Virus record (IMG/VR): IMGVR_UViG_3300025128_004324
Span: 1 to 25,452 of that record
Reading direction: 5' to 3' (one strand)
DNA length: 25,452 nt
DNA from: a virus
In this document: one piece after another, positions 233 to 24,790 of the stretch
Position numbering within the stretch: position 1 is the first letter of the stretch
How the letters are laid out: the number at the start of each line of letters is the position of its first letter
Notes under the pieces: generated by a model
Seen by the model: the letters and a program-made list of their open reading frames with translations, nothing else
Told to the model about the DNA's origin: nothing
The model's database searches: none
Position numbers and translations under genes: made by a program

Positions 233-1451
233 GAATACTGTCAGTGCGCCTAAAAAATCACAACGATCTGATGACCTTCAAGTATTACGAGAAGCAGGGT
301 TATTGGAAGAAGATAGCGTAGCGCTATCTACTCCTAGAAAAGAAGATTTGGATATTCTTCAAGCAGCAGGACTGTTAGAAGAAAAACCAAAATCACCCAA
401 AATTGTTTCCATAGTAAAAGAAGATAAGTCTGACGATATTACTAAAAAACAACTCAATGATATTGAGAAGTATGCAGATAAAATATTTCGTGCAGTAGGT
501 ATTGATGTAGAATTTACTCGACATTTTCTTGACCGTGTAAATGATTCACGAAACAAAAAACAAATCACTCCCGCTGAACTCGTTAGACTGTTCAAACAAT
601 CCTATAAAAAATACGGCAAGAAGATTTCTAAACTTGGTGCAGAAGCCCAAGCAGTAATCAATGATATGCGTACAGATATCAATATGCCTTTTGTACTGGA
701 ACCCAAAGGAAATGAATTAGAACTTATTGCTAAGACTGTAATGAGAAAGAAGGATTTTAAAACATCAAATCCTAAGTTGTCATTTGAGTCTTATACTAAG
801 GGCGATACTGTTACCACTGATGATGCTTTGGTTCTTAAAGAAGAAAGTTTGGATGATTTTAAACATCCTAAGATAGAAGATAGACCAGTAGAACATGTTG
901 AGGGAGATTGGAAGAATTTAGCAGTACCCTCACCTTCTCCTAATAGTAGTGAGGACACATTAAAAGAACTTCTACTATCACAAAAATTAGGGGTAAGTAG
1001 AACAGAGGAGCAAGAGAAGAGTGTTCTTAATCATGACAGCAGTGCTGCTTATGCTGTTAAACAGTATATGGATGCTAATAAATTATCATATGATAAAAAG
1101 GAATTTGATAAGGTTATAGAGGCTGGTCGAGGAGTTGGACGTTTTTATAAGAATATGTTCCAACGCCCCCGTCCTTGGGAACTTGCAGAAAAGTTAAATA
1201 TTAATATTCATCATATGGAGTTTCCTTCTGACAGTATGGATTCTCCAGCATATCCAAGTAATCATAGTTTACAGTCAAGGTTGGTTGCAGAGTATTATGC
1301 TCAAATGTATCCTCAACATAGGGCACAATTAATTAAAGCCGCAGAAGAAAGTGGTGTTGGTAGAGTTAGAGCTGGGTGGCATTATAATTCAGATCAAGGT
1401 TGGTTGCAGAGTATTATGCTAAAATACATCCTCAACATAGGACACAATTAA
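219..1451 (+). CDS. PAP2-motif domain protein, N-terminal part of a frame-broken fibre gene
   Basis: The N-terminal ~200 residues contain a conserved-looking block around FTRHFLDRVNDSRN and DMRTDINMPFVLEP that resembles domains in marine T4-like phage structural proteins. Residues 311-392 carry the full three-part PAP2/haloperoxidase signature: K311-x6-R318-P319, then P346-S-N-H349, then R382-x5-H388-x3-D392. These residues form the phosphohydrolase site in that superfamily; activity here is inferred. After D392 the frame enters the second copy of a 119-bp tandem duplication and ends in 18 unrelated residues. Removing one copy fuses this frame to the following one, giving a 1462-residue protein with a PAP2-like domain ahead of a repeat fibre. 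The last 18 residues should not be treated as real protein. Confidence 0.75.
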   Translation: MKRFKNTVSAPKKSQRSDDLQVLREAGLLEEDSVALSTPRKEDLDILQAAGLLEEKPKSPKIVSIVKEDKSDDITKKQLNDIEKYADKIFRAVGIDVEFTRHFLDRVNDSRNKKQITPAELVRLFKQSYKKYGKKISKLGAEAQAVINDMRTDINMPFVLEPKGNELELIAKTVMRKKDFKTSNPKLSFESYTKGDTVTTDDALVLKEESLDDFKHPKIEDRPVEHVEGDWKNLAVPSPSPNSSEDTLKELLLSQKLGVSRTEEQEKSVLNHDSSAAYAVKQYMDANKLSYDKKEFDKVIEAGRGVGRFYKNMFQRPRPWELAEKLNINIHHMEFPSDSMDSPAYPSNHSLQSRLVAEYYAQMYPQHRAQLIKAAEESGVGRVRAGWHYNSDQGWLQSIMLKYILNIGHN

Positions 1452-1512
1452 TTAAAGCCGCAGAAGAAAGTGGTGTTGGTAGAGTTAGAGCTGGGTGGCA
1501 TTATAATTCAGA
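1275..1512 (+). repeat. 119-bp imperfect tandem duplication, left edge of fibre segment
   Basis: Copy 1 is 1275-1393 and copy 2 is 1394-1512, with no spacer. I count four substitutions, near 1301-1308 and 1324 in copy 1. At protein level AQMYPQHRAQ becomes AKIHPQHRTQ. Because 119 is not a multiple of three, the duplication breaks the reading frame. The unit encodes the third PAP2 motif. Two near-identical abutting copies with strain-like substitutions look like an unmerged contig overlap, although a true duplication is possible. Confidence 0.95.
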
Positions 1513-4500
1513 CCATAAAGCAGGGGTTACTCTTGCTGAACAATTGGTCAAGATGATTAATATCAAAACCAAATCGACTGAAGAATTTACAAATATTCTT
1601 GAAAATTACCAAGAGGTTTTGGAAGACGCAAAAGAAAAGGAATTTAATTATAAGTTGGAAACTGGTTTAAAAACTTTGGAACAACGAGAAATAAAGAAAG
1701 CAGCTTCCTTTATTACAGAAGGTGCTCCACCCAAAGAACCAGAAAAATCAACCGAAGAAAAATTACAAGAACAAATCGAATCACTATCTAATCTAAAACG
1801 TGATTTACCGAATATGATGGCAACTACCGCTGGTGGTGGTTCTATCTTTTTGTATGATTTAGATGATGTAGATGAATCTACTAGACAGGACGGTTATTTC
1901 TTAAAGTATAGAGCATCAGACCAAAAATTTATTGGTGAGGCTTCTGCTGTATCCAGTGAAACCATTCAAGATGTTGTTGGGAATATGGTTACATCAAATA
2001 CCGAAACAGGTATGACGGTAACATATGAAGATGGCGATGGTACATTAGATTTTGTAATTGGTACACTTAATCAAGATACCACAGGAAACGCTGCAACTGC
2101 GACAACTCTTGCTACTGCTAGAACAATTGGTGGTACAAGTTTTGATGGTTCTGCTAATATTGCAGTAGCACTTTCTGCTACAACAACAGCACTTGCAAAT
2201 GCAAGAACTATTGGTGGTGTATCTTTTGACGGTACTGCTAATATTAATTTGCCAGGCGTAAATACTTCTGGTAATCAAGACACTAGTGGGACTGCTTCAA
2301 AGGCTACAGTTTCAGACAGTACTGCAAATACAAACTTCCCTGTTGTTTTCCATGATGAATCAAATGGACTGTTAGATGACACAGGTGCATTACGATATAA
2401 CCCAAGTACAGGTGAACTACTTGTACCAAATCTTACTGTAGCAGGCACAACCACACAAGTTGATACTGTTACCATGAACGCACAGAACGCAGTTATTTTT
2501 GAGGGCGCAACTGCTGATGCACATGAAACAACATTAACTGTTACAGACCCAACTACTGACCGTACTATTACGTTGCCCAATGCAACAGGTACAGTTGCAT
2601 TAACTTCTAGTGATATCACAGGTAATGCTGCAACTGCCACAGCACTTGCAACGGCCAGAACTATAGGTGGAACCTCCTTTGATGGTACAGCAAATATTGC
2701 TGTTGCTCTATCTGCTACCGCTACTGCACTTGCTACGGGTAGAACTATCGGAATGACAGGTGATGTTGTTTGGACTTCTGCTTCCTTTGATGGTACTGGA
2801 AATGTCACTGGTTCTGCCACAATTCAAGCAAATTCCGTAGACGGTACTATGATTGCAGTTGGTTCTGATGCCTCAGGTGACATACTGTATTATGATGGTA
2901 CTAATTATGTGCGTCTTGGTAAGGGTGACGATGACCAAGTATTAACTCTCTCTTCTGGTGTTCCTTCTTGGGCCGCAGCTGGTGGTACTTCTGATGAATC
3001 CATTCAAGATGTTGTCGGTGCAATGTTTAGTTCTAATACTGAAACTGGTATTACTGCGACATATCAAGATGGTGACGGTACAATAGATTTGGTTGTAGGA
3101 ACTCTTAATCAGGATACTACTGGACTTGCTGCAACTGCTACTGCACTTGCTACTGCTAGAACAATAGGTGGAACTTCATTCGATGGTACTGCGAACATTG
3201 CTGTCGCCCTTGCGGCAACCGCAACTGCTCTTGCTAGTGCAAGAACTATTCATGGTGTTAGTTTTGATGGGACTGCAAATATAGATTTAACTGAAGTCGT
3301 ACAAGATACAGTTGGTGCTATGTTTAGCTCCAATACTGAAACTGGTATTACTGTATCGTATGAAGATGGTGATGGAACCATAGACCTTGTAGTTGGTACA
3401 TTAAACCAAGATACTACTGGAACTGCTGCAATTGCAACAACAGTTACTATAACTGACAATGAATCCACAAATGAAAACAATGCTCTTATCTTTACAGCTG
3501 GTGGGGATGTTGATGGTGGTAATCTTGGATTAGAATCAGATGGTACATTAACATACAATCCTAGTACTGGTAAAATAACCGCTACTGGATTTATAGGTGC
3601 ATTAACAGGTGATGTTACAGGCGATGTAACAGGTAATGTGAGTGGCACGGCCGCAACAGTTACAACTGCAGCTCAATCTAATATAACCTCATTGGGTACA
3701 CTGACTACTCTTACAGTTGATAATATTATTATCAATGGAACGAATATAGGACATACTTCTGATACAGATGCAATTGCAATTGCCTCTGATGGTAAGGTTA
3801 CATTTACACAAGAAATTATTGCAACATCATTAGATATTTCTGGCGATGTAGATGTTGATGGTACATTAGAAACAGATGCATTAACAATTGGTGGCACTAC
3901 ACTTGCAGAAACTATTGCTGATACAGTTGGTGCAATGGTTGGTAGTAATACTGAAACGGGTATTACAGTAACTTATCAAGATGGCGATAACACGTTAGAC
4001 TTTGCTGTTGGAACTCTAAACCAAGATACTACAGGAAGTGCTGCAACTTTAACAACTGCAAGAAGTATCGCAATGTCAGGTGATGTTGTGTGGAGTGTAT
4101 CATTTGATGGTAGTGGTAATGTAACTGCTGCTGGAACCATACAAAGTGGCGCAGTAGAAACGGGAATGATTGCTGCTGACGCAATAACTGCTGCAAAGAT
4201 TGCTGATGATGTTATAAATAGTGAACATATCGTAGCTGATTCAATTGATGCAGAACACTATGCTGCTGGAAGTGTTGATACAACAGCACTTGCCGTTAAT
4301 GCGGTAACTGTGAGTAAGATTAATGGTGATGCGGTAACAGGTGCAAAGATTGCTGATGATTCTATTGACAGTGAACATTATGTAGATGGTTCGATTGATA
4401 CTGCTCACATTGCTGATTCTCAAATAACTTCTGCTAAAATTGCAGATGGAACTATTGTTGCTGGAGACATTGCCGATCAGGCTATAAATTCTAATAAAAT

Positions 4501-4726
4501 TCTTGATGGAGCTATTGTGTCAGGCGATTTAGCTGACAATGCTGTAACAACTCTGAAGATAAATAATGATGCAGTAACAGGTGCAAAGATTGCTGACGAT
4601 ACAGTTGCAGAAGCAAATATGGCAGATGATGCAATTGGTTCTGCTCAACTTAAAACATTATCCACATTATTAATTAAAAATTCTGGTGGAACTACATTAA
4701 AAACTGTACATGGAGCAGGAGCATGA
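1400..4726 (+). CDS. Repeat-rich phage tail fibre or adhesin, C-terminal part
   Basis: This 1108-residue frame opens inside duplication copy 2, with TTG as the first possible start, so it is best seen as the continuation of the gene beginning at 219. It first repeats the end of the PAP2 motif and then has a charged, probably coiled-coil segment. Next comes a DLDDVDESTRQDGYFLKY-type block found in marine T4-like fibre proteins. The bulk consists of degenerate repeats: ARTIGGTSFDGTANI units, and four SNTETGITVTYEDGDGT...GTLNQDTTG blocks near 1971-2085, 3001-3125, 3301-3420 and 3911-4033. The last ~190 residues repeat AKIADDSIDSEHY-like motifs. Such low-complexity beta-type repeats suit a trimeric virion fibre that recognises the host surface. 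The stop overlaps the first copy of the next gene's start. Confidence 0.8.
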   Translation: MVAEYYAKIHPQHRTQLIKAAEESGVGRVRAGWHYNSDHKAGVTLAEQLVKMINIKTKSTEEFTNILENYQEVLEDAKEKEFNYKLETGLKTLEQREIKKAASFITEGAPPKEPEKSTEEKLQEQIESLSNLKRDLPNMMATTAGGGSIFLYDLDDVDESTRQDGYFLKYRASDQKFIGEASAVSSETIQDVVGNMVTSNTETGMTVTYEDGDGTLDFVIGTLNQDTTGNAATATTLATARTIGGTSFDGSANIAVALSATTTALANARTIGGVSFDGTANINLPGVNTSGNQDTSGTASKATVSDSTANTNFPVVFHDESNGLLDDTGALRYNPSTGELLVPNLTVAGTTTQVDTVTMNAQNAVIFEGATADAHETTLTVTDPTTDRTITLPNATGTVALTSSDITGNAATATALATARTIGGTSFDGTANIAVALSATATALATGRTIGMTGDVVWTSASFDGTGNVTGSATIQANSVDGTMIAVGSDASGDILYYDGTNYVRLGKGDDDQVLTLSSGVPSWAAAGGTSDESIQDVVGAMFSSNTETGITATYQDGDGTIDLVVGTLNQDTTGLAATATALATARTIGGTSFDGTANIAVALAATATALASARTIHGVSFDGTANIDLTEVVQDTVGAMFSSNTETGITVSYEDGDGTIDLVVGTLNQDTTGTAAIATTVTITDNESTNENNALIFTAGGDVDGGNLGLESDGTLTYNPSTGKITATGFIGALTGDVTGDVTGNVSGTAATVTTAAQSNITSLGTLTTLTVDNIIINGTNIGHTSDTDAIAIASDGKVTFTQEIIATSLDISGDVDVDGTLETDALTIGGTTLAETIADTVGAMVGSNTETGITVTYQDGDNTLDFAVGTLNQDTTGSAATLTTARSIAMSGDVVWSVSFDGSGNVTAAGTIQSGAVETGMIAADAITAAKIADDVINSEHIVADSIDAEHYAAGSVDTTALAVNAVTVSKINGDAVTGAKIADDSIDSEHYVDGSIDTAHIADSQITSAKIADGTIVAGDIADQAINSNKILDGAIVSGDLADNAVTTLKINNDAVTGAKIADDTVAEANMADDAIGSAQLKTLSTLLIKNSGGTTLKTVHGAGA

Positions 4727-7952: not shown

Positions 7953-8981
7953 ATGGATGCATACATTGATATTAAATATCTCAACCTAATTCAAAGCTCC
8001 CTTCCGATGTTCAAGAAGAAGGGAGATTTTCTATGGAATTTTCGCTGTCCTTACTGTGGTGACTCTAAACGGTCACGCACAAAGGCTCGTGGTTTCGTAT
8101 ACCGTAAGAAGAATGACCTATTTTTTAAGTGTCATAATTGTGGTGTTGGCACTACTTTAGGGAAACTTATAAAATATGTTGACTCAAAAACTTACGATGA
8201 CTATATACTAGAACGATACAGAAAAGGGGTTAAGTCCAACAACCCTGAGCCGGAGTTTAAATTTAATGAACCAGTGTTTCGCACAAAGGGTGTTCTCAAA
8301 AGTCTTGACCCTATTTCAGAATTACCAGAGAACCATCCAGCGAAACAAATCATTGAAAAACGGTGTTTACCACCAAAGTCTCTCTCCGACTTGTATCTAT
8401 GCAAGTCTTTTTATAAATTCACGAATTCGCTAGTTCCTAATAAGTTCCCATCTTTAGATGGGGATCATCCAAGGCTTGTGATTCCTTTTCGTGATGAGAA
8501 TGGTAAAATTTTTGCGTATCAAGGAAGAGCATTTGGAAAGGAACAACCGAAATATATTACAATTATTTTAGACCATAACAAAGATAAAGTTTTTGGTTTA
8601 GATACTGTTACTAAAGATAAACCTGTTCTAGTTGTCGAAGGCCCGTTAGATAGTTTATTTCTAGATAATTGTATTGCTGTTGCTGGTGCTAGTTTTAGAA
8701 GTCCTTTATCAATTAAAGGGAGACTTATGCAGAATGGTGAATTGACAATTATATTTGACAACGAACCAAGAAATAAGGAGATATGTAAACAAATAGAACG
8801 GTCTATTAATCAGGGACAAAGAGTTGTACTCTGGCCTGATGCAATAAAAGAAAAAGATATTAACGATATGATTTTGTCTGGTATGACGAAAGAGGACATA
8901 CAGGATATAATAAGAAACAATACCTTTAGTGGTGCAGAGGCACAATTGAGGTTCGCAGAATGGAGAAAAATAAATGTCTGA
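7953..8981 (+). CDS. DNA primase, T4 gp61-like
   Basis: The N-terminus has a zinc ribbon, C32-x2-C35 and C60-x2-C63. The central region ends in a TOPRIM core with VLVVEGPLDS (E229) and a downstream IIFDNEP acidic motif, then a DINDM segment. This is the DnaG-type layout used by phages to make RNA primers at the fork, working with a replicative helicase that is not in this window. The length of 342 residues matches T4 gp61. It heads the block behind a sigma70-like promoter, and its last 8 nt overlap the reductase gene. Assignment to the TOPRIM primase family is firm; the exact subfamily is less certain. Confidence 0.85.
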   Translation: MDAYIDIKYLNLIQSSLPMFKKKGDFLWNFRCPYCGDSKRSRTKARGFVYRKKNDLFFKCHNCGVGTTLGKLIKYVDSKTYDDYILERYRKGVKSNNPEPEFKFNEPVFRTKGVLKSLDPISELPENHPAKQIIEKRCLPPKSLSDLYLCKSFYKFTNSLVPNKFPSLDGDHPRLVIPFRDENGKIFAYQGRAFGKEQPKYITIILDHNKDKVFGLDTVTKDKPVLVVEGPLDSLFLDNCIAVAGASFRSPLSIKGRLMQNGELTIIFDNEPRNKEICKQIERSINQGQRVVLWPDAIKEKDINDMILSGMTKEDIQDIIRNNTFSGAEAQLRFAEWRKINV

Positions 8982-10950
8982 ACTAAACGGTAATAACTAC
9001 CTACCAACACCCTATCAAGAATTCATTCACTTGTCAAGATATTCACGATGGTTAGCAGAAGAAGGAAGGCGAGAAACTTGGCCTGAAACAGTTTCACGAT
9101 ACTTTACATTTTTTGATGAACATCTTATGGATATGCATCAATACAAATTACCAAGTACGTTGCGTAAAGAAATAGAAGAAGCAGTATTAGATTTGAAGGT
9201 TATGCCTTCCATGCGTTGTATTATGACTGCTGGAGAGGCATTGAAACGAGAGAACATTGCTGGATACAATTGTTCTTATGTTGCAATCAATCGCCCTCAA
9301 GCATTTGATGAAGTGCTTTATATTCTTATGAATGGAACTGGTGTTGGTTTCAGTGTAGAACGTCAATTTGTAAATGAACTTCCTCGTATTGCCGAGGAAT
9401 TTTTTATTACAGATACCGTAATTACCGTTGCAGATAGTAAACTTGGATGGGCAAAAGCGTTCAAAGAACTCGTTGGAATGTTGTATATTGGACAGATACC
9501 TAGATGGGACGTATCTAAAGTTAGACCCGCTGGCGCTCCTCTAAAGACGTTTGGCGGTAGGGCTAGTGGGCCAGAACCGCTCGAAGCACTTTTTAATTTT
9601 ACAGTTAATATCTTTCAGAACTCAGCAGGACGTAAGTTATCTTCTATTGAAGCACACGATATTGTATGTAAAATTGCAGAAATTGTTGTGGTTGGTGGTG
9701 TTCGCCGTTCTGCATTGATTAGTCTATCGAATTTGTCTGATGACCGTATGCGAGCTGCAAAACATGGTCAGTGGTGGGATAATAATCCTCAACGTGCTCT
9801 TGCAAACAATAGTGCATGTTATTCAGAGAAGCCTGATATTGGTGTATTCATGGACGAATGGAAAGCTCTTTATGAGTCTAAGTCTGGTGAACGTGGTATT
9901 TTCAATCGTGAAAGTGCTGTCAAGATGGCAGAACGAAACGGTAGACGGGATGTAAGTCATGAGTTTGGTACAAACCCATGTTCAGAGATTATTTTACGGG
10001 ACAGGGAATTCTGCAATCTTTCAGAGGTGGTAGTACGAGTTACCGATACAGTAGAAACATTAAAATCAAAAGCTCGTCTTGCTGCAATCTTAGGTACACT
10101 TCAATCAACACTTACAAACTTTAAGTATGTATCTGCTGGTTGGAAAAAGAATTGTGAAGAGGAACGTCTACTTGGTGTGTCTCTTACAGGTATTATGGAT
10201 TCGCCTCTTACTAATGGTTCTGAAGGAGACTTAGGTAAACTTTTGGATGAATTGCGTGAAATTGTTGTCGCAACAAACAAATCATTTTCTTCCAAAATTG
10301 GTATTAATCAATCTACTGCAACAACCTGTGTTAAACCTTCTGGTACAGTATCACAGTTGACAGATGCAGCTTCTGGTATTCATGCTCGTCATAATCCTTT
10401 TTATATTCGTACAGTGCGTGGAGATAAGAAAGACCCACTTACAAAGATGATGACTGATGTTGGTTTTCCTGTAGAGGATGACCATCTTAATCCTACACAT
10501 ACTGCTGTTTTTTCCTTTCCTATGAAGGTAGAGAAGGGTGCTGTATTTCGTACAGATAAAACTGCAATTGAACAGTTGGAACTTTGGAAAGCATATCAAG
10601 AACATTGGTGTGAACACAAACCTTCTGTTACTATTTCTGTTAAAGAACATGAATGGATGACAGTCGGTGCATGGGTATATGATAATTTCGATTATATGTC
10701 TGGCGTGAGTTTCCTGCCTTTTTCGGAACATACATATAAGCAAGCACCTTATCAGGATATAGAAAAACAAGATTACGAAGACCTTCTGACTAAGATGCCT
10801 AAAAATGTGGATTGGACTAAATTGGCTGAGTATGAAAGTGTAGATATGACAGTAGGTTCTCAAGAACTTGCTTGCACTGCTGGTGTTTGTGAAGTAGTAG
10901 ATTTAGTACCTACAATAGAACCACAAGAAGCAGTGGAAATTAGCGCTTAA
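8974..10950 (+). CDS. nrdJ: Adenosylcobalamin-dependent (class II) ribonucleoside-triphosphate reductase
   Basis: The enzyme reduces ribonucleotides to deoxyribonucleotides using a cobalamin-generated thiyl radical. The family's functional residues can be placed by spacing: C100 in YNCSYV (partner of the redox pair), N334-P-C336-S-E338 (thiyl radical Cys with Asn and Glu), C347 eleven residues later (second redox Cys), and the C-terminal shuttle pair C634-x4-C639. The pattern matches the Lactobacillus-type monomeric enzyme, at 658 residues versus ~739 there. There is no small radical-generating subunit in the window, consistent with class II. A GGAG at 8962-8965 sets the start. It would supply dNTPs for phage replication, provided the host has B12. 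Confidence 0.92.
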   Translation: MSELNGNNYLPTPYQEFIHLSRYSRWLAEEGRRETWPETVSRYFTFFDEHLMDMHQYKLPSTLRKEIEEAVLDLKVMPSMRCIMTAGEALKRENIAGYNCSYVAINRPQAFDEVLYILMNGTGVGFSVERQFVNELPRIAEEFFITDTVITVADSKLGWAKAFKELVGMLYIGQIPRWDVSKVRPAGAPLKTFGGRASGPEPLEALFNFTVNIFQNSAGRKLSSIEAHDIVCKIAEIVVVGGVRRSALISLSNLSDDRMRAAKHGQWWDNNPQRALANNSACYSEKPDIGVFMDEWKALYESKSGERGIFNRESAVKMAERNGRRDVSHEFGTNPCSEIILRDREFCNLSEVVVRVTDTVETLKSKARLAAILGTLQSTLTNFKYVSAGWKKNCEEERLLGVSLTGIMDSPLTNGSEGDLGKLLDELREIVVATNKSFSSKIGINQSTATTCVKPSGTVSQLTDAASGIHARHNPFYIRTVRGDKKDPLTKMMTDVGFPVEDDHLNPTHTAVFSFPMKVEKGAVFRTDKTAIEQLELWKAYQEHWCEHKPSVTISVKEHEWMTVGAWVYDNFDYMSGVSFLPFSEHTYKQAPYQDIEKQDYEDLLTKMPKNVDWTKLAEYESVDMTVGSQELACTAGVCEVVDLVPTIEPQEAVEISA

Positions 10951-13830: not shown

Positions 13831-14109
13831 ATGGAAGCATTTAAGCTAATTGCTGATCTTGGTTTTTCTATCGCAGCATTGTTTGGCGGTGGATTCTTTA
13901 TTATTCTACTTTTGAAATATATTCTGGAGTCTGTAGTAAGTAAGGCTCAAGGACTAAATGGTATGATTAGTGCGTTGGACAATAGGGTAAAAACTATTAA
14001 CAACGAAATCGTCCGTTTAGATGCATTAATATGCCATGCGTTGGGTGTTAAACCAGATACCCGAAGATTATCTGCTGCCGATGGAAAAGAAGACGCAAGG
14101 AAAGATTGA
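13831..14109 (+). CDS. N-terminal membrane segment plus coiled-coil protein A
   Basis: A hydrophobic segment (IAALFGGGFFIILLLKYIL, about residues 14-32) is followed by a helical region with heptad spacing (ISALDNRVKTINNEIVRLDALI). It then has a polar tail rich in Arg and Asp. It resembles the next gene product in layout, and both contain a (D/N)x(I/M)xRLD segment, suggesting a related pair. This is the first gene of the run that leads into the curli-like genes. A holin-like or membrane-scaffold role is possible but unproved. Confidence 0.65.
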   Translation: MEAFKLIADLGFSIAALFGGGFFIILLLKYILESVVSKAQGLNGMISALDNRVKTINNEIVRLDALICHALGVKPDTRRLSAADGKEDARKD

Positions 14110-14441
14110 TGCAAGAATTTATTAATGCAGTTAATCAGTATGGTGTGCCAACCGTAACAGCGGTGGGTATGGCCTATTTTATATATTTTATATGGAAGTT
14201 TGTTACAACCACAATTCTTCCATCACTTAATCAAGCTTCAACTACATTAGTTGCTCTCATAGATAGAGTGAGGATGCTTGATAATGATATGATACGATTA
14301 GACCAAAAGATTAATACTATAATTGAAATTCAAGACCAGCAAAATGACCCATTTGAGAAAGCACAAAAAATAAGAGATGAACAGCAAGATAAAAAGATAA
14401 ATAGCAATTCGGCAACTATTAAAAAATTAAAGGAGAAATAA
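14109..14441 (+). CDS. N-terminal membrane segment plus coiled-coil protein B
   Basis: One hydrophobic segment (VTAVGMAYFIYFIWKFVTTT, about residues 15-34) precedes a helical region (LIDRVRMLDNDMIRLDQKIN) and a charged Lys-rich end. I place the start at the ATG whose first base is the last base of the previous stop; a TTG one codon earlier is also possible. The layout matches the preceding protein, and similar proteins occur in marine T4-like phages. Its last base is shared with the ATG of the oxygenase gene, so the genes are coupled. Confidence 0.65.
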   Translation: MQEFINAVNQYGVPTVTAVGMAYFIYFIWKFVTTTILPSLNQASTTLVALIDRVRMLDNDMIRLDQKINTIIEIQDQQNDPFEKAQKIRDEQQDKKINSNSATIKKLKEK

Positions 14442-15019
14442 TGAATGTGCGTGATTTTATACAGTATTTTCCAGATACACTAAATGAAGAAATATGTGAT
14501 AATATAATTTTTGATTTAAAGAAAAAGTTGCCAGAAACAGATTTATTACCTCGTTTCTTAGATAAGATATCTGAAGAGGATAAAGAGTATAAATGTCTAT
14601 CTGAAGCGGTTAAGGAAATAAAACAAAAATATTTACAGGTAATACCTGATTATGTTAAAAATTATCATGATGTATCAGGAGAGGATTTTAATATAAAAGA
14701 AGCTATACATAAAAAGCTAAGAGTACATTATTATCCTACAGGGGGAAATGTAGGTATTCATATTGATAATACTGGAGCAAGAAAAAGATATATGAAAAAA
14801 AATAAAAGCTTACCAAACACTGAACGTAATTTTGCTCAGTTGTCTTGTTTAGTATTTTTAAATGATAATTATGAAGGGGGTGAATTTGTAGTTGCAGATC
14901 AAGAATATGAAACATCAAAAGGGTCTGCTTTAATTTTTCCAGCAAACTTTATGTTCCCCCATAAAGTTAAGGAAGTTACCAAGGGAGAGCGCTGGAGTAT
15001 TGGCGCATTTTTAAGATGA
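14441..15019 (+). CDS. 2-oxoglutarate/Fe(II)-dependent oxygenase, prolyl-hydroxylase-like
   Basis: The metal-binding triad is visible as H107-x-D109 (in NVGIHIDNTG) and H174 (FPHKV), with the 2-oxoglutarate-binding Arg ten residues later at R184 (ERWSIG). GGEFVV and SALIFPANFMFPHKV are typical of the prolyl-4-hydroxylase-like group. These enzymes hydroxylate a protein side chain, nucleic acid or small molecule while consuming 2-oxoglutarate. Marine T4-like phages carry many, mostly with unknown substrates. Its stop overlaps the csgF ATG (ATGA), so it is probably translated together with the curli-like genes and might modify one of their products. No signal peptide, so it acts in the cytoplasm. 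Confidence 0.85.
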   Translation: MNVRDFIQYFPDTLNEEICDNIIFDLKKKLPETDLLPRFLDKISEEDKEYKCLSEAVKEIKQKYLQVIPDYVKNYHDVSGEDFNIKEAIHKKLRVHYYPTGGNVGIHIDNTGARKRYMKKNKSLPNTERNFAQLSCLVFLNDNYEGGEFVVADQEYETSKGSALIFPANFMFPHKVKEVTKGERWSIGAFLR

Positions 15020-15480
15020 ATAATACTAAATATATTTTCGTTGGAATTTTAACATGTATGATATATGTAATGTATATTGATTCAGTTAATGCTGGGCAAT
15101 TAACACACCAGTTTAAATCTCCGGCTTTTAATGGTCAGGGATATAGCGCACATGTGTTGACGATTGAGAACCAAGAGTTTTCTCGTAAAAAAGCAATTAG
15201 AGAAAAAAGAGAAGCAGCAGAAAGACAAGCAGCAAGAGATGCCGCAAATACAAACCTTTCCAAATTTATGAAAAATGTGGAAAGCAGGATTTATGCTCAG
15301 CTTTCAAAACAATTAGTAGACAGTATGTTTGGAGAAGATTCTGGTACATCAGGTACAGTAACTTTTGAAGGTACTACAATTAGTTATGTTAAAGATTCTC
15401 AAAACGTAACTTTAACAATAGTGGATGCAAATGGTAGTGAAACGGTTATTACAGTTCCTATCGGCGATTTTACTTTTTAG
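15016..15480 (+). CDS. csgF: Curli assembly factor CsgF-like protein
   Basis: CsgF caps the CsgG outer-membrane pore and guides curli nucleation at the cell surface. A signal peptide ends ...VNA at residue 26. The mature start, GQLTHQFKSPAFNG, has the same form as E. coli mature CsgF (G..T.QF..P.F.G), the segment that inserts into the CsgG channel. An extended charged helix follows (RKKAIREKREAAERQAARD), then FMKNVESRIYAQLSKQLV and a beta-rich tail (TLTIVDANGSETVITVPIG), matching the known fold order. At 154 residues it is slightly longer than E. coli CsgF (138). It overlaps csgG by 56 nt in another frame, which strongly couples the two. Confidence 0.88.
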   Translation: MNNTKYIFVGILTCMIYVMYIDSVNAGQLTHQFKSPAFNGQGYSAHVLTIENQEFSRKKAIREKREAAERQAARDAANTNLSKFMKNVESRIYAQLSKQLVDSMFGEDSGTSGTVTFEGTTISYVKDSQNVTLTIVDANGSETVITVPIGDFTF

Positions 15481-16225
15481 TGCGGCGGGATGCCAAACGA
15501 TTCCTACAGAGGAACCCAAGGTATCTTCTGCACCACTAGTAAATCAACTAGAAATATTAACACCTCCCGTAAGGAAGGTGCCGATAGCTGTTTATCAATT
15601 TGGTGATTTAACAGGTCAAAGAAAACCAAGTGAAACTCTTGCCTCCTTTAGTACTGCTGTAACTCAAGGAGCTCATGTAATGTTAATTCAGGCCTTGAAA
15701 AAAGCAGGGAATGGAGAGTGGTTTCAAGTAGTAGAAAGAGTAGGATTAGATAATTTATTAAAAGAACGACAAATCATACGAAATACCAGAGAACAATTTG
15801 AAGGTAAAGATGCTAAAAAACTTAAAGGTCTATTATTTGCTGGAGTTTTACTTGAAGGTGGTGTTGTCGGGTATGATACTAATATTGAGACAGGTGGTGT
15901 GGGAGCAAGATATCTTGGACTAGGTATACATGATGAATATCGCAGAGATATAGTATCAGTAGGTATAAGACTTATATCAGTACAAACAGGTGAGGTTCTA
16001 TTGGCGATAAGTACTCACAAAACAATATTGAGTACAAAAGTTGGACTTAATGTTTTTAGATTTTTAGATATGGGAACAAAACTTTTAGAGACTGAAATAG
16101 GATTTACACAAAATGAATCCATAACTTATGCAGTACGAAAAGCAATAGAAACTTCTGTTGTAGAATTAGTAAAAAAAGGTGAAAAGAATAAGTTATGGGA
16201 ATTTAAAAAGGAGGAAGAAAAATGA
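15425..16225 (+). CDS. csgG: Curli secretion pore lipoprotein CsgG-like
   Basis: CsgG forms the outer-membrane oligomeric channel that exports curli subunits. The lipobox ends LFSAAGC with C23 as the lipid-bearing residue. Diagnostic segments are FSTAVTQGAHVMLIQAL, ERVGLDNLLKERQIIR, GGVGARYLGLG, STHKTIL and FRFLDMGTKLLETEIGFT, all in the same order as E. coli CsgG. The full family length is present (266 residues), with no truncation. In the constriction loop the E. coli Tyr51/Asn55/Phe56 set appears as a one-residue-longer loop ending S74-F75, so only the Phe is kept. An ATG two codons later is an alternative start. The signal peptide is encoded inside the end of csgF. Confidence 0.93.
   Translation: MQMVVKRLLQFLSAILLFSAAGCQTIPTEEPKVSSAPLVNQLEILTPPVRKVPIAVYQFGDLTGQRKPSETLASFSTAVTQGAHVMLIQALKKAGNGEWFQVVERVGLDNLLKERQIIRNTREQFEGKDAKKLKGLLFAGVLLEGGVVGYDTNIETGGVGARYLGLGIHDEYRRDIVSVGIRLISVQTGEVLLAISTHKTILSTKVGLNVFRFLDMGTKLLETEIGFTQNESITYAVRKAIETSVVELVKKGEKNKLWEFKKEEEK
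16208..16214 (+). promoter_or_regulatory. Strong ribosome binding site before the first curlin gene
   Basis: AAGGAGG lies 7 nt before the ATG of the first curlin-repeat gene. It is the strongest Shine-Dalgarno match I see within the curli-like operon. This is consistent with the amyloid subunit being made in larger amounts than the pore, although expression level is inferred. Confidence 0.6.
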
Positions 16226-16905
16226 GAATAAGCATACTTACATTCCTAGCGGTCTTTGTTATGAGTGGTGTGAGCTATGCTAGTGATGTTTACATAACAC
16301 AGTCAGGCGCAAGTTTTACTGCGAATATAAATCAGGATGGACAGACAAACAAGTACGGACAATCAGGTGCAGTTGCAACACATACAGGTGATAATCAAAC
16401 TTTGGATATTGACCAAATTGGTAACACCAATACAATCGCTGCAACTGTTGTAGGTGCTGATCAAACAATAACTCTTAGACAAGAAGGTAATAGTAATACA
16501 TCTACAGTAACAGTTGGTTCAAACTCCGCTGCCGCAGACAATAGTATAATACAAACACTAACTGGTAGTTCTAATACAACTACGGTAAATGTTGGTACAT
16601 CTGCTGCTTCTGGTGACGCTGATATTGATCTTGTTGCAACAGGTGATAGCAATACTGTTACTATTAATGAAAATAGTACCGCAACAATGATTGGCGATGA
16701 TAAGAAAGTAACAAGTATAACTTTAAGTGGAAGTAGCAATACAGTTACATCAACACATACGGGTGCTGGAGATCACGATACCACATTAGCACATACTGGT
16801 TCCTCTGGAACTTTTAGTATCACTCAAGGTGGTGCTCATGATTCTAGTGTTGTCATGACAACCAGTGGGGCTGGACATAATGTTACGGTTACTCTTGACG
16901 ATTAG
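16222..16905 (+). CDS. Curlin-repeat amyloid candidate 1 (CsgA/CsgB-like)
   Basis: A signal peptide (20 residues, ending VSYA) is followed by SDVYITQSG and then degenerate curlin repeats of roughly 22-24 residues: INQDGQTN, IDQIGNTN, LRQEGNSN, LTGSSN, VATGDSN, LSGSSN. The Q-x-G-x2-N core is the hallmark of curlins, in which each repeat forms one strand-turn-strand rung of a cross-beta fibre. Later repeats lose the Gln but keep the G-x-S-N turn. The composition is dominated by Thr, Ser, Asn, Gly, Asp and Val, and I see no Cys. The gene sits directly after csgG with a 4-nt overlap, so it is the obvious export substrate. It could be a minor rather than major subunit, or a phage-specific amyloid. 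Confidence 0.8.
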   Translation: MRISILTFLAVFVMSGVSYASDVYITQSGASFTANINQDGQTNKYGQSGAVATHTGDNQTLDIDQIGNTNTIAATVVGADQTITLRQEGNSNTSTVTVGSNSAAADNSIIQTLTGSSNTTTVNVGTSAASGDADIDLVATGDSNTVTINENSTATMIGDDKKVTSITLSGSSNTVTSTHTGAGDHDTTLAHTGSSGTFSITQGGAHDSSVVMTTSGAGHNVTVTLDD

Positions 16906-17950
16906 TTTTATGATATTTGCCACTACATCATATGCTAGAATTGGAAATGTAATAGAACACAGGGGAAACGCTTCTGTTGAACGGAGTGGCGAAAAGTCCG
17001 TTCTGAAGAATGGTTCTGATGTTGAGTTTAAAGATAATGTCAGAACAGGCGATGGCGATGTTGGTATCAAATTTGTTGATGAAACTAATGTTGCCGTTAG
17101 TCCACATAGTTCTCTGATAATAGATGAGTTCATCTATGACCCGAATTCACGTTCTGGTTCTAAGTTGGTGATGAATATTGCGTTGGGTACTGTTCGTTAT
17201 GCGAGTGGTAATATTGCAAAACTTAATAGACAGAATGTTGATATACGAACGCCAACAGCAAGAATAGGTGTTAGGGGCACGGCTTTCAGCATGACGGTGG
17301 ATGAAATAGGTAAGTCTCTTGTAATTCTACTGCCTAATGCTGATGGGACAGTAGGTGAGATTTCAGTGGAGAGTGGTGCTGGTGTAGTGATTATGAATCA
17401 GGCATTTCAAGCAACTACAGTTGGTGTTGCAGAAGGTAAACCATCTAATCCAGTGATACTTGATTTGACGTTAGACCAGATAAACAATTTATTAATAATA
17501 AAACCACCAAAGGAGAAGTTGGTAGAGTTAGTAAAAGATTCAAAAAATTCTATGAATTTGTTAGATATTGATTTATTAGAATTTAAAGACTTGGATGAAA
17601 ATAAATTAGATAAAGATGAATTAGATTTTGGCCTGTTGGATATTAACGAGCTAGATATTGATTTACTTGCAAATATTTTAGATAAACTTACAACCGCATT
17701 AGATAAGAAGAAAGATACAGAACATCTTGATGGCAGAACATCAGGGTTTAATAAAGAAACAGGTGTAAATACTATAATAGATGGAAATTTTTTAGAGATT
17801 ATTCGGTATTCGGGTAGCAGTGCGGTTTGGTTGACATTAAATGGTGATTACGGATATAAAATAGATTTAACACAGGAAGGAATACCTGTGCCGGAGTTTA
17901 CAACAAATGATTCGATTGATAACAATATTACTATCTATCAGTCTGAGTAG
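16880..17950 (+). CDS. Exported FecR-domain protein
   Basis: I start at the ATG giving MLRLLLTISFMIFATTSYA as signal peptide; a GTG 15 nt upstream is an alternative. The FecR domain spans about residues 20-170 with T126-A-R-I-G-V-R-G-T134, the family's signature. Unlike classic FecR anti-sigma factors there is no cytoplasmic N-terminal region and no sigma factor gene nearby, so it is periplasmic and not an anti-sigma factor. Residues ~227-270 form an acidic Leu/Asp repeat (DIDLLEF, DELDFGLLDINELDID). The C-terminal ~60 residues appear beta-rich. It overlaps the first curlin gene by 26 nt and the second by 44 nt. A link between amyloid sensing and the downstream sensor cyclase is a reasonable guess. 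Confidence 0.82.
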   Translation: MLRLLLTISFMIFATTSYARIGNVIEHRGNASVERSGEKSVLKNGSDVEFKDNVRTGDGDVGIKFVDETNVAVSPHSSLIIDEFIYDPNSRSGSKLVMNIALGTVRYASGNIAKLNRQNVDIRTPTARIGVRGTAFSMTVDEIGKSLVILLPNADGTVGEISVESGAGVVIMNQAFQATTVGVAEGKPSNPVILDLTLDQINNLLIIKPPKEKLVELVKDSKNSMNLLDIDLLEFKDLDENKLDKDELDFGLLDINELDIDLLANILDKLTTALDKKKDTEHLDGRTSGFNKETGVNTIIDGNFLEIIRYSGSSAVWLTLNGDYGYKIDLTQEGIPVPEFTTNDSIDNNITIYQSE

Positions 17951-18629
17951 TATAGCATATGCCAATGAGGTTTATATTACACAGTCTGGTGACGATTTAA
18001 ATGTAAATATATCACAAGATGGTAGGAACAATACCATTACCAAAAACATATGGACTGTAGCATATGATTGGGAGGGTGATGATAATACATTTGATTTGAG
18101 ACAAAAAAATACACGAAATAATTCGTCAGATTCCAATTATCAAGGATTTCATATTGATGGGAATAATAACACTGTCAGAGTTGGGCAGGGATATGCAGAT
18201 TATGGAAGTCTGGCGACAGCAGGAAACCAATCTTGGGCAACAGATAATTGGGAAGGTGGTAATAATACAGCGATGGTAGATATTCATGGTGATAACAATA
18301 TTCTTAATATTGGTCAGAGAAATGGCCATCTAGGAAATTTTAATGGACATGATGCAACAGTAAATATATACGGTGATGATAACACAGCAAGGTCAGTACA
18401 GGTACATGATGGAGCAAAGGACTTGACATTGACACTTAATGGCGATGACCATACAGTTTATACAGAACAAAGAAATGCTGGTGCTCATAATGCAACAATT
18501 AGTTTAACAAATGGTAGTGATGCATATTCGCTTTCACTATCACAAAATTCTACAACAGCTCAAAATTATTCAATGACAGGTACATGTTACACTAGTGGAG
18601 GTTGCTCGGTTTCGGTGACACAGAATTGA
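17907..18629 (+). CDS. Curlin-repeat amyloid candidate 2
   Basis: The signal peptide (MIRLITILLSISLSSIAYA) leads into NEVYITQSGDD, almost the same mature start as the first curlin-like protein (SDVYITQSGAS). This suggests paralogues that share an export or nucleation signal. Repeats include ISQDGRNN, LRQKNTRNN, HIDGNNNTVRVGQG, DIHGDNNILNIGQRN, NIYGDDNTA and TLNGDDHTVYTEQRN, i.e. G-x-N-N turns with Gln in the following strand. Spacing is looser than in E. coli CsgA. The end has a Cys pair (GTCYTSGGC) and finishes VSVTQN. The signal peptide is mostly encoded within the end of the FecR gene. The pair could act as major subunit and nucleator, as CsgA and CsgB do. Confidence 0.75.
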   Translation: MIRLITILLSISLSSIAYANEVYITQSGDDLNVNISQDGRNNTITKNIWTVAYDWEGDDNTFDLRQKNTRNNSSDSNYQGFHIDGNNNTVRVGQGYADYGSLATAGNQSWATDNWEGGNNTAMVDIHGDNNILNIGQRNGHLGNFNGHDATVNIYGDDNTARSVQVHDGAKDLTLTLNGDDHTVYTEQRNAGAHNATISLTNGSDAYSLSLSQNSTTAQNYSMTGTCYTSGGCSVSVTQN

Positions 18630-18630
18630 T

Positions 18631-20478
18631 ATGAAAAAATGGATTGTCTCTACCTTAGTTATCTTAATTTTATCTGGTATTCACTTTTCAAACCCGTGGT
18701 TCCTCGACATGGTGCGAATGAAAGCACTAGACCAACATCAACGCAATCAAGAGATACAATCTCTTTCAAATTTAGTAACAGTAGAAATCAACAATGAAAC
18801 AATCAAGAAAAAAGGACAGTGGCCTTGGGATAGAAACACACTGTCAAATGAAATTATCAAACTCTATCAGCAAGGTGCTGGTTTGGTTGTACTTCCCATC
18901 CTTTTTGCAGACAAGGATAGATTCGGAAAAGATGAAGCCTTAGCAAGAACACTCAAAAGAACACCCACAATTATAGGCCAAATACCCACTACAGATGATA
19001 GCAATTCTGGTGTAACCCGTGGAGTTGCAAAGGTAGGTTCGCCTTGGTATGGATGGTTAAATCAATATCAGGGAGCATTGGGCCCTATACCAGAACTAGC
19101 AAAGAGTGCTAATGGTGTAGGTATGTTGATTATTTCACCAGAAGGTGATGGTGTAGTTAGACGTATGCCTTTAGTAGTTGCAGTTGGAGATGAAGTATAT
19201 CCTGCTATTAGTTTAGAAGTTCTACGCATGGCAGCGGGTGATATATCCTACCAGATGAAAACTGGTATCGCTGGTGTGGAAGCAATAAGAATACCGAAGT
19301 ATAAAATCATAAAGACAGACCCACATGGTAACATATGGCTTGATTTCAAATGGAAAACACCTGTTTATGCCTTACATGAGAAGCTACCAGATATCAAAGG
19401 AAAAATAGTTATACTGAGTATTACTGCTACAGGGTTGAATAATCCTGTTACGACTCCTGTAGGAGTTATTCATTCCCACGATTTAATTGGTTCATCTCTT
19501 GCAACGATGATGACAGGAAGAAACATCACACGCCCATATTGGACTAATTTTGCTGAACTTGGTGCTTCAATGGGACTTGCCTTTTTACTCATGATTGTGG
19601 TATTATTATTACCGTGGTATTTCGGCGCAGTATTGATGCCCACCACAGTAGTAGGATTATTTTATGGGAGTTCACATTTATTTACTAAATATGATTTACT
19701 GGTGGATTGGAGTTACCCTGTACTTACTGTATTTGTCGCATGGGCAATTGCTGCATTTCTTAGGTTCATGGAAGAGTTCAAGTTGCGTCAACAAATCAAG
19801 AAACAGTTTGAACACTATCTGGCACCAGAGATGGTCAAGAGATTACAGAAGAATCCAGAACTATTACAGTTGGGTGGTGAACGTAGAGAGATGAGTTTTC
19901 TTTTTATGGACATAGTGGGCTTTACGCCCATAAGTGAGTACTATAAGAATAATGATGATCCAGAAGGACTAGTAGAATGTATTAATGATTATCTTAATCG
20001 TATGACTAAAATAGTTTTAAAGAACGGTGGGACGGTGGATAAATATATGGGCGACTGTATTATGGCATTTTGGAACGCTCCACTAGATTGTGAAAATCAT
20101 GCAGAAATGGCAGTACGAACTTCTGTTGAATGTGCAGTAGAAACAGAAGCATTAAAACAGTCATTTAAAGATAAAGGACTGCCAGAGATAAATATAGGTA
20201 GTGGAGTAAATACTGGAACATGTATCGTAGGTAATATGGGCAGTGATTCCAGATTTGATTATTCTGTTATAGGTGATGCAGTAAACCTTGCTGCAAGGCT
20301 TGAAGCAGCAACTCGTAACTATAAAAAAGATGATGGTGGTATTGTGAATACCCTCTATTCGTCATATACGCAAGATCAACTCCCCGAAGAACTAAGAGGG
20401 GAAGAGATTGATAAAATCAAGGTGAAGGGAAAGGAAGAATTAGTTACCATATACAAACCAAGAGATAAAAATGAATAA
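18631..20478 (+). CDS. CHASE2-domain class III adenylate cyclase
   Basis: The layout is an N-terminal membrane segment (~4-20), a CHASE2 extracytoplasmic sensor (~25-300, with VTVEINNETIKKKGQWPWDR and DIKGKIVILS), about three membrane segments (~308-392), then a cytoplasmic class III cyclase domain (~420-590). Metal-binding Asp residues are D427 (FMDIVGFT) and D475 (KYMGDCIMAF). Transition-state N552 and R556 are in VNLAAR. K471 and S545 sit at the purine-selecting positions; a Lys with Thr/Ser is typical of class IIIb adenylate cyclases. All catalytic residues are present, so it should be active as a homodimer making cAMP. It starts one base after the second curlin gene. A signalling cyclase is unusual for a phage; the ligand sensed is unknown. 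Confidence 0.9.
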   Translation: MKKWIVSTLVILILSGIHFSNPWFLDMVRMKALDQHQRNQEIQSLSNLVTVEINNETIKKKGQWPWDRNTLSNEIIKLYQQGAGLVVLPILFADKDRFGKDEALARTLKRTPTIIGQIPTTDDSNSGVTRGVAKVGSPWYGWLNQYQGALGPIPELAKSANGVGMLIISPEGDGVVRRMPLVVAVGDEVYPAISLEVLRMAAGDISYQMKTGIAGVEAIRIPKYKIIKTDPHGNIWLDFKWKTPVYALHEKLPDIKGKIVILSITATGLNNPVTTPVGVIHSHDLIGSSLATMMTGRNITRPYWTNFAELGASMGLAFLLMIVVLLLPWYFGAVLMPTTVVGLFYGSSHLFTKYDLLVDWSYPVLTVFVAWAIAAFLRFMEEFKLRQQIKKQFEHYLAPEMVKRLQKNPELLQLGGERREMSFLFMDIVGFTPISEYYKNNDDPEGLVECINDYLNRMTKIVLKNGGTVDKYMGDCIMAFWNAPLDCENHAEMAVRTSVECAVETEALKQSFKDKGLPEINIGSGVNTGTCIVGNMGSDSRFDYSVIGDAVNLAARLEAATRNYKKDDGGIVNTLYSSYTQDQLPEELRGEEIDKIKVKGKEELVTIYKPRDKNE

Positions 20479-23752: not shown

Positions 23753-24790
23753 ATGCTTATAGAAGATGATGTTAAGTTTGACTATTCGGATGTACTAATT
23801 CGTCCCAAAAGGTCAACAATTACTTCACGATTCGATGTTGAATTAGAACGAACATATACCTTCTACCATAGTCAAAAAGAATGGACGGGTGTTCCTATTG
23901 CTGCTAGTAATATGGATACTACTGGCACATTTGAAATGCACAAGGCATTACGAGAACACAAGATGGTTACTTGTATTGCCCGACATTACAATAAACTAGA
24001 TAATGATTGGTTATCTCTTGAAGATGAGCAATACGAACATTCTTGTGTTATGTCTGGTGTATCTAAACAAGAACTTATAGAACTCATTCATATCGCTAAA
24101 ATGTTTCCTGTATCATTTGTGGGACTAGACGTTGCAAATGGATATACGAAGAACTTTGTAGATGCGGTTAGTCATGTACGAAAGGAACTTCCTGATGCAA
24201 CGATTATTGCTGGTAATGTAGTTACCCGTGATATGACAGCAGAACTTATTATGGCTGGTGCTGATATTGTAAAAGTGGGCGTTGGGCCTGGTTCTGTATG
24301 TACTACTCGTATTAAGACAGGTATCGGATATCCACAGTTGAGTGCGGTCATAGAATGTGCAGATGCAGCACATGGTATGGGTGCTCACATTATTGCAGAT
24401 GGTGGTTGTACATCGTCTGGTGATATTGTGAAAGCATTTGCTGGTGGTGCTGATTTTGTTATGATTGGTGGTATGCTTGCTGGTCATGATGAGTGCGATG
24501 GCGAGTATGTATTTGAGGATGATGTAGAAGAGCCCGTAGGTATGAAATTCTATGGCATGGCATCAAATACGGCTATGGAACGTCATGGCCACCCGAATCG
24601 TGAATACCGTGGTGAAGAAGGTAAGACAGTTACCGTACCATATCGTGGTAAGGTAAAATATGCTGTATTAGACATTCTAGGTGGTATTCGTTCTGCTTGT
24701 ACTTATGTAGGAGCAAAACGATTAAAGGACTTGACAAAATGTGCGACATTTGTTAAAGTACATAGTACACACAATAAAATCTTTGAATAA
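23753..24790 (+). CDS. guaC: GMP reductase
   Basis: GMP reductase converts GMP to IMP and ammonia with NADPH, feeding guanine nucleotides back to adenine nucleotides. The protein follows E. coli GuaC almost throughout: [77 protein letters not shown] with catalytic C183, [15 protein letters not shown] and [20 protein letters not shown]. The length is 345 residues versus 347, and it lacks the CBS insert of most IMP dehydrogenases. It starts directly after the previous stop. In a phage it would rebalance purine pools made available by host nucleic acid turnover. Confidence 0.93.

Follow-up and report, generated by a model that had tools for sequence, protein, structure and literature searches.

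The 25,452-nucleotide stretch of DNA analysed here (the window; a 25-kb virus record from a marine T4-like phage) encodes a CHASE2 sensor adenylate cyclase, whose gene stands last in the phage's curli (type VIII secretion) module, the order being csgF-csgG-curlin-fecR-curlin-AC. We give an even chance to a model whereby the cyclase is the sensor arm of this module, reading FecR or curlin and making cAMP. Since homologues in the cultured HTVC008M and Melnitz phages and two earlier reports (PMC7029224; PMC9599517) place the gene in an already published kind, it is ordinary and expected for this phage group and not in itself new. Three features appear to be unreported: the swapping of gene halves at the linker, a second type of cyclase head, and the adjacency of FecR genes to the closest bacterial CHASE2 cyclases.

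The cyclase gene (18631-20478, plus strand) is a single uninterrupted reading frame of 615 amino acids. Pfam placed CHASE2 at residues 12-320 (E 1.1e-35, 123.8 bits against a cut-off of 26.3) and Guanylate_cyc at residues 420-606 (E 1.5e-16, 60.9 bits against a cut-off of 21.9), so that both domains of a CHASE2 class III adenylate cyclase are present above curated cut-offs. The initial annotation had described a complete sensor cyclase at this position, with an extracytoplasmic CHASE2 domain, membrane helices and six named catalytic residues, and each of these points was borne out. Indeed, D427, K471, D475, S545, N552 and R556 were all found with exactly the numbering given, providing the two metal-binding Asp residues, the purine Lys and Ser/Thr, and the transition-state Asn and Arg. 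In a 75-row alignment of the window protein with full-length phage relatives, one row of which duplicates the window's own locus, D427, K471, D475 and R556 are invariant, and N552 and S545 are kept in 72 and 71 rows, respectively. An AlphaFold2 model built from 45 window and locus sequences (mean pLDDT 88.2, pTM 0.63) gave a confident fold. The predicted order is an N-terminal helix (TM1, residues 2-20), an extracytoplasmic alpha/beta domain corresponding to CHASE2 (about 23-298), three membrane helices (304-326, 329-354 and 361-393), a linker helix and, last, the cyclase fold (417-609). The cyclase part of the model matched the crystal structures of P. aeruginosa CyaB and Spirulina CyaC in Foldseek.

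At the position aligned with K471, CyaB has Lys and Cya2, a guanylyl cyclase, has Glu, which makes ATP the likely substrate of the window enzyme. Judged by these residues, the enzyme is probably ATP-specific and its likely product is cAMP. Among close phage pairs, dN/dS was mostly 0.02-0.09 for the cyclase half and mostly 0.08-0.28 for the sensor half. The cyclase gene is therefore under strong purifying selection across phages, and both halves look functional, with faster divergence in the sensor.

Key context missing from the initial annotation was a curli module directly upstream of the cyclase. The cluster, all on the plus strand, starts with two small paralogues matching phrog_18771, at 13831-14109 (a predicted membrane helix was read from the sequence) and 14106-14441 (likewise a small membrane-helix protein); the former gene type is the conserved start of the module in phage relatives. 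They are followed by a 2OG-Fe(II) oxygenase (14441-15019; Pfam 2OG-FeII_Oxy_3, 5e-14), which was not seen at the corresponding place in the relatives' loci, the curli chaperone CsgF (15016-15480; Pfam CsgF, 3e-20) and the outer-membrane curli pore CsgG (15425-16225; Pfam CsgG, 5.6e-56). Next come a first curlin-like protein (16222-16905), whose Curlin_rpt match (7.7e-4) lies just below the gathering score and whose position is conserved in phage loci, and a FecR-domain protein (16865-17950; Pfam FecR, 5.8e-7; phrog_37870, 1.5e-87), which we propose to be the partner of the CHASE2 sensor in the periplasm. A second curlin-repeat protein (17907-18629; Pfam Curlin_rpt, 1.4e-7) directly precedes the cyclase, in which the cluster ends. 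Thus, csgF, csgG, curlin and fecR stand with the cyclase in the conserved order of the pelagiphage module. The two phrog_18771 proteins occupy the spot of the 'histidine kinase' of PMC9599517 and, going by position, are presumably equivalent to it; their lengths of 92 and 111 amino acids and the lack of any Pfam match at E 1 exclude ordinary histidine kinases. The T4-type late promoter TATAAATA occurs once in the window, at 4213, which is fewer than expected by chance and not near the module, and a sigma-70 scan of the window gave fewer sites than in shuffles.

The core genes of the window are nearest to those of phages of OM43, SAR11 and SAR116 bacteria. For its primase and RNase H the closest counterparts are in the T4-like Melnitz phages of OM43, and its B12-dependent ribonucleotide reductase (8974-10950) is nearest to that of the SAR116 phage HMO-2011 (64%), standing in an otherwise Melnitz-like replication region. 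Elsewhere in the window, the product of 23753-24790 scores above the cut-off of NCBIfam PRK05096 and is a phage GMP reductase. The end of the ORF at 219-1451 and the start of the ORF at 1400-4726 share a near-identical peptide (VAEYYA...RVRAGWHYNSD, around 1400-1530), suggesting a duplication or a frame break around a PAP2-like domain.

A survey of related phages, as proposed in the initial annotation, had already been published (PMC9599517), and the gene is widespread. Relatives of the cyclase are encoded on at least 599 IMG/VR stretches and by two cultured phage groups, HTVC008M and Melnitz, in which annotated homologues lie in the same place, and the gene is clearly phage-encoded, as had been claimed. 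Of the retrieved phage loci, all 38 that extend at least 6 kb upstream from the cyclase gene contain CsgF, CsgG and FecR. At one locus (L057) the cyclase lies upstream of the remaining curli genes, unlike in all other long loci. The Pelagibacter phage HTVC008M adenylate/guanylyl cyclase (KC465899, 11972-13807) has the same domain layout as the window protein and the same place, at the end of csgF-csgG-curlin-ORF-ORF; its cyclase domain is 81% identical to that of the window, but its sensor only 38%. The Melnitz cyclase (MZ577097), from phages with OM43 hosts, shares the module and the CHASE2 layout but differs in its cyclase domain (36% identity), in having Ser for N552 and Asp for S545, and in a longer C-terminus. 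A curli cluster was reported in pelagimyophages (PMC7029224), and a study of 2022 described the cyclase and FecR together with curli genes in podo- and myovirus pelagiphages, in a module that, like that of the window, comprises CsgF, CsgG, CsgA/B, FecR, a second curlin and AC (PMC9599517). Its authors proposed an alphaproteobacterial origin and a role in regulating the T8SS, and in their surveys the cyclase was not always present in phage curli regions. The main text of that paper differs from the present account in that it does not name CHASE2 or CRP or report sensor/cyclase mosaicism. Cyclase matches in an Acinetobacter 'phage' were set aside as a phage parallel, because the contig carries bacterial housekeeping genes (mfd, hscA and rpsT).

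The sensor and cyclase halves of the gene differ in history, and they recombine between phages at the linker. The window and a second locus, L012, are 79% identical in the sensor and 35% in the cyclase; L012 and Melnitz, conversely, are 38% and 87% identical. HTVC008M and Melnitz, two cultured phages with complete genomes, share 60% of sensor and 37% of cyclase residues. A ten-member sensor clade that includes the window had support of 100/99 on sensor data and was rejected on cyclase data (AU p = 5.5e-28), and the Melnitz-type head clade was rejected on sensor data (p = 3e-5); these p-values are somewhat flattered because the groups were noticed before testing, but the differences in log-likelihood (399 and 202) are substantial. 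The changeover between the two histories falls around residues 380-420. Since the pattern is seen in complete genomes of cultured phages, metagenomic chimaeras are insufficient as its cause. Unequal rates were also rejected as an explanation, because some pairs combine high sensor with low cyclase identity and others the reverse. Over 35 phage loci, FecR distances correlate with sensor distances at r 0.90 and with cyclase distances at 0.42, and for the other module genes, too, the agreement is far closer with sensor than with cyclase distances; the locus pairs are interdependent, and linkage could by itself produce this pattern.

A second type of cyclase head was found in Melnitz and in at least 158 contigs; in Melnitz and the 80 contigs compared (L003 and L189-L268), position 552 is Ser and position 545 is Asp in 81 of 81 cases. 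These heads retain the metal Asp residues, the Lys and the Arg. They are 81-99% identical to that of Melnitz, with sensors ranging from 31 to 92%. None of 80 bacterial relatives (the best 80 of at least 580, chosen by similarity to the window protein) has Ser at the 552 position, and these 80 have Lys and Ser/Thr at the purine positions. The Asn stabilises the transition state, so the Ser heads may have a lower rate, a different substrate or a need for a partner.

Evidence bearing on the input came from the bacterial relatives. A scan of 84,980 species genomes gave at least 580 matching stretches, and the best 80 were examined. These are mainly alphaproteobacterial, with at most 36% identity to the window protein over the best segment. 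No CsgF, CsgG or curlin gene was found in the flanks of the 80 loci (up to 10 kb, many shorter). In contrast, these flanks held 26 FecR genes, of which 15 lay within 400 nt of the cyclase; the probability of at least 15 such cases by random placement is about 3e-6, an approximate figure that assumes a rate and about a dozen neighbouring genes. Three of five FecR proteins scanned from beside bacterial cyclases have cadherin-like domains, two of these also having RTX repeats, an architecture that resembles surface adhesins. CHASE2 cyclases are known to cluster with FecR in Campylobacterota (PMC9239204), and in S. meliloti the FecR-domain gene SMc02177, which is dispensable for plant signal perception, is numbered adjacent to cyaD1 (SMc02176) (PMC5498481). 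Both systems share with the phages the pairing of a CHASE2 class III cyclase with an envelope protein that has a FecR domain; the FecR-linked bacterial cyclases among the best 80 loci differ in their sequence divergence and in having no curli genes nearby. Transfer of the whole module from bacteria as one block was rejected, as five alphaproteobacterial csgF loci had neither FecR nor a cyclase in roughly 10 kb. Most simply, FecR and the CHASE2 cyclase would be an old bacterial pair to which curli was added, either among the phages or in a donor that has not been sampled. Since these 80 bacterial CHASE2 cyclases often adjoin FecR and never curli, the input of the sensor is likely to be FecR or exported curlin. 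Contact between FecR and CHASE2 is putative, the sensor-FecR correlation may reflect linkage only, and the dispensability of SMc02177 in S. meliloti counts against this input.

These observations suggest how the sensor arm might work. The N-terminal helix and CHASE2 would lie at the periplasmic face of the inner membrane, where they would sense the state of the periplasmic FecR protein encoded by the phage, or of exported curlin. Through the next three membrane helices and the linker helix, that state would be relayed to a dimeric class III cyclase, which would make cAMP from ATP inside the infected cell. In the known hosts, the cAMP would then act on something other than a CRP regulator.

This last step departs from the initial annotation, in which cAMP could act through a host CRP-like protein and redirect carbon metabolism or surface gene expression. 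An intact phage membrane sensor cyclase, probably specific for ATP, stands from that interpretation; the CRP-mediated part found no support in our host survey. SAR11-order genomes were found with the 16S probe SAR11-441R; the two genomes it identified, which we take to be SAR11, match three further SAR11 probes as well. In this order, to which the host of HTVC008M belongs, PF00027, the canonical cNMP-binding domain, was present in 7 of 117 genomes, compared with 141 of 190 Alphaproteobacteria and 117 of 120 Methylophilaceae. Six of these matches fall within a frame of 870 amino acids; the seventh sits in a 372-aa frame at the edge of a contig. The protein of about 870 amino acids (L178-L184) was, in the one match examined, fused to an acyltransferase domain, and is a candidate cAMP receptor in some SAR11-order genomes. 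No CRP-like regulator was seen among the 117 genomes (one of the seven PF00027 matches being examined), and none of the 117 encoded a class III cyclase (PF00211). Twenty Methylophilaceae genomes of 1.2-1.3 Mb, which we call OM43-sized and which may not be OM43, had one PF00027 match each: 19 were frames of 396-431 amino acids and the twentieth was an FNR-type regulator. Three of the frames (among L270-L288) were typed as BrkB-domain membrane proteins with a C-terminal cNMP domain. None of eight phage records encoded a PF00027 protein. The survey covered receptors with PF00027 and class III cyclases with PF00211, in genomes that may be incomplete; a literature search on cAMP or CRP in SAR11 found nothing useful. 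A CRP-type transcription factor was thus not found for the known hosts, the SAR11 order and OM43-sized Methylophilaceae, and the cAMP-CRP route is unsupported there.

A model in which host CRP binds the cAMP and reprogrammes host transcription and carbon metabolism is accordingly unlikely. The intact ATP-type residues fit it, as does the presence of PF00027 proteins in most Alphaproteobacteria, and the surveyed hosts may not be the window phage's own, given its SAR116-phage-like ribonucleotide reductase and OM43-phage-like primase and RNase H. However, apart from the scarcity of suitable regulators in both host groups, the cyclase is tied to curli genes and not to metabolism genes. To the same small degree we entertain a private phage cyclic-nucleotide circuit in hosts that lack class III cyclases and CRP, with swappable CHASE2 sensors and at least two heads, the Ser/Asp head being tuned to another product or receptor, such as the BrkB-cNMP protein of OM43-sized genomes.

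A role for the product in conflict between phage and host or between phages, for example as a cyclic-nucleotide defence decoy or in superinfection exclusion, in place of a regulatory signal, is improbable. PADLOC PycC models did match the cyclase domain (1.2e-24), but bacterial CHASE2 cyclases scored the same or better, so that the match reflects generic class III homology and identity as a Pycsar cyclase was rejected. No Pycsar effector was seen among the upstream neighbours of the cyclase, which are curlin and FecR (small ORFs lie downstream), and K471 and S545 do not indicate pyrimidine specificity. Less probable still is a cyclase that is a mere passenger of the curli module with no role of its own. 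Its location at the 3' end of the module, and its absence from some curli regions, would fit, but the low dN/dS argues strongly against it, as do the nearly invariant catalytic residues and the gene's presence on hundreds of contigs. Misassembly or host contamination, conceivable for a single 25-kb metagenomic contig, is refuted in practice, because phage genes flank the cyclase region on both sides and the gene order recurs in two groups of cultured phages with complete genomes, as well as in dozens of separate contigs.

The preferred model, the cyclase as the sensor arm of the curli module, leaves a puzzle at the output: in a lytic phage, strong selection maintains a second-messenger enzyme whose product has no visible receptor of a standard kind in SAR11, which also lacks a visible class III cyclase. 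The pairing of FecR with CHASE2 and the swapped heads provide testable handles on input and output, and the missing SAR11 receptor merits pursuit, as do the exchanged halves and the Ser head. Either the most abundant marine bacteria have a hitherto unrecognised cAMP receptor, or the phage puts the molecule to a novel use.
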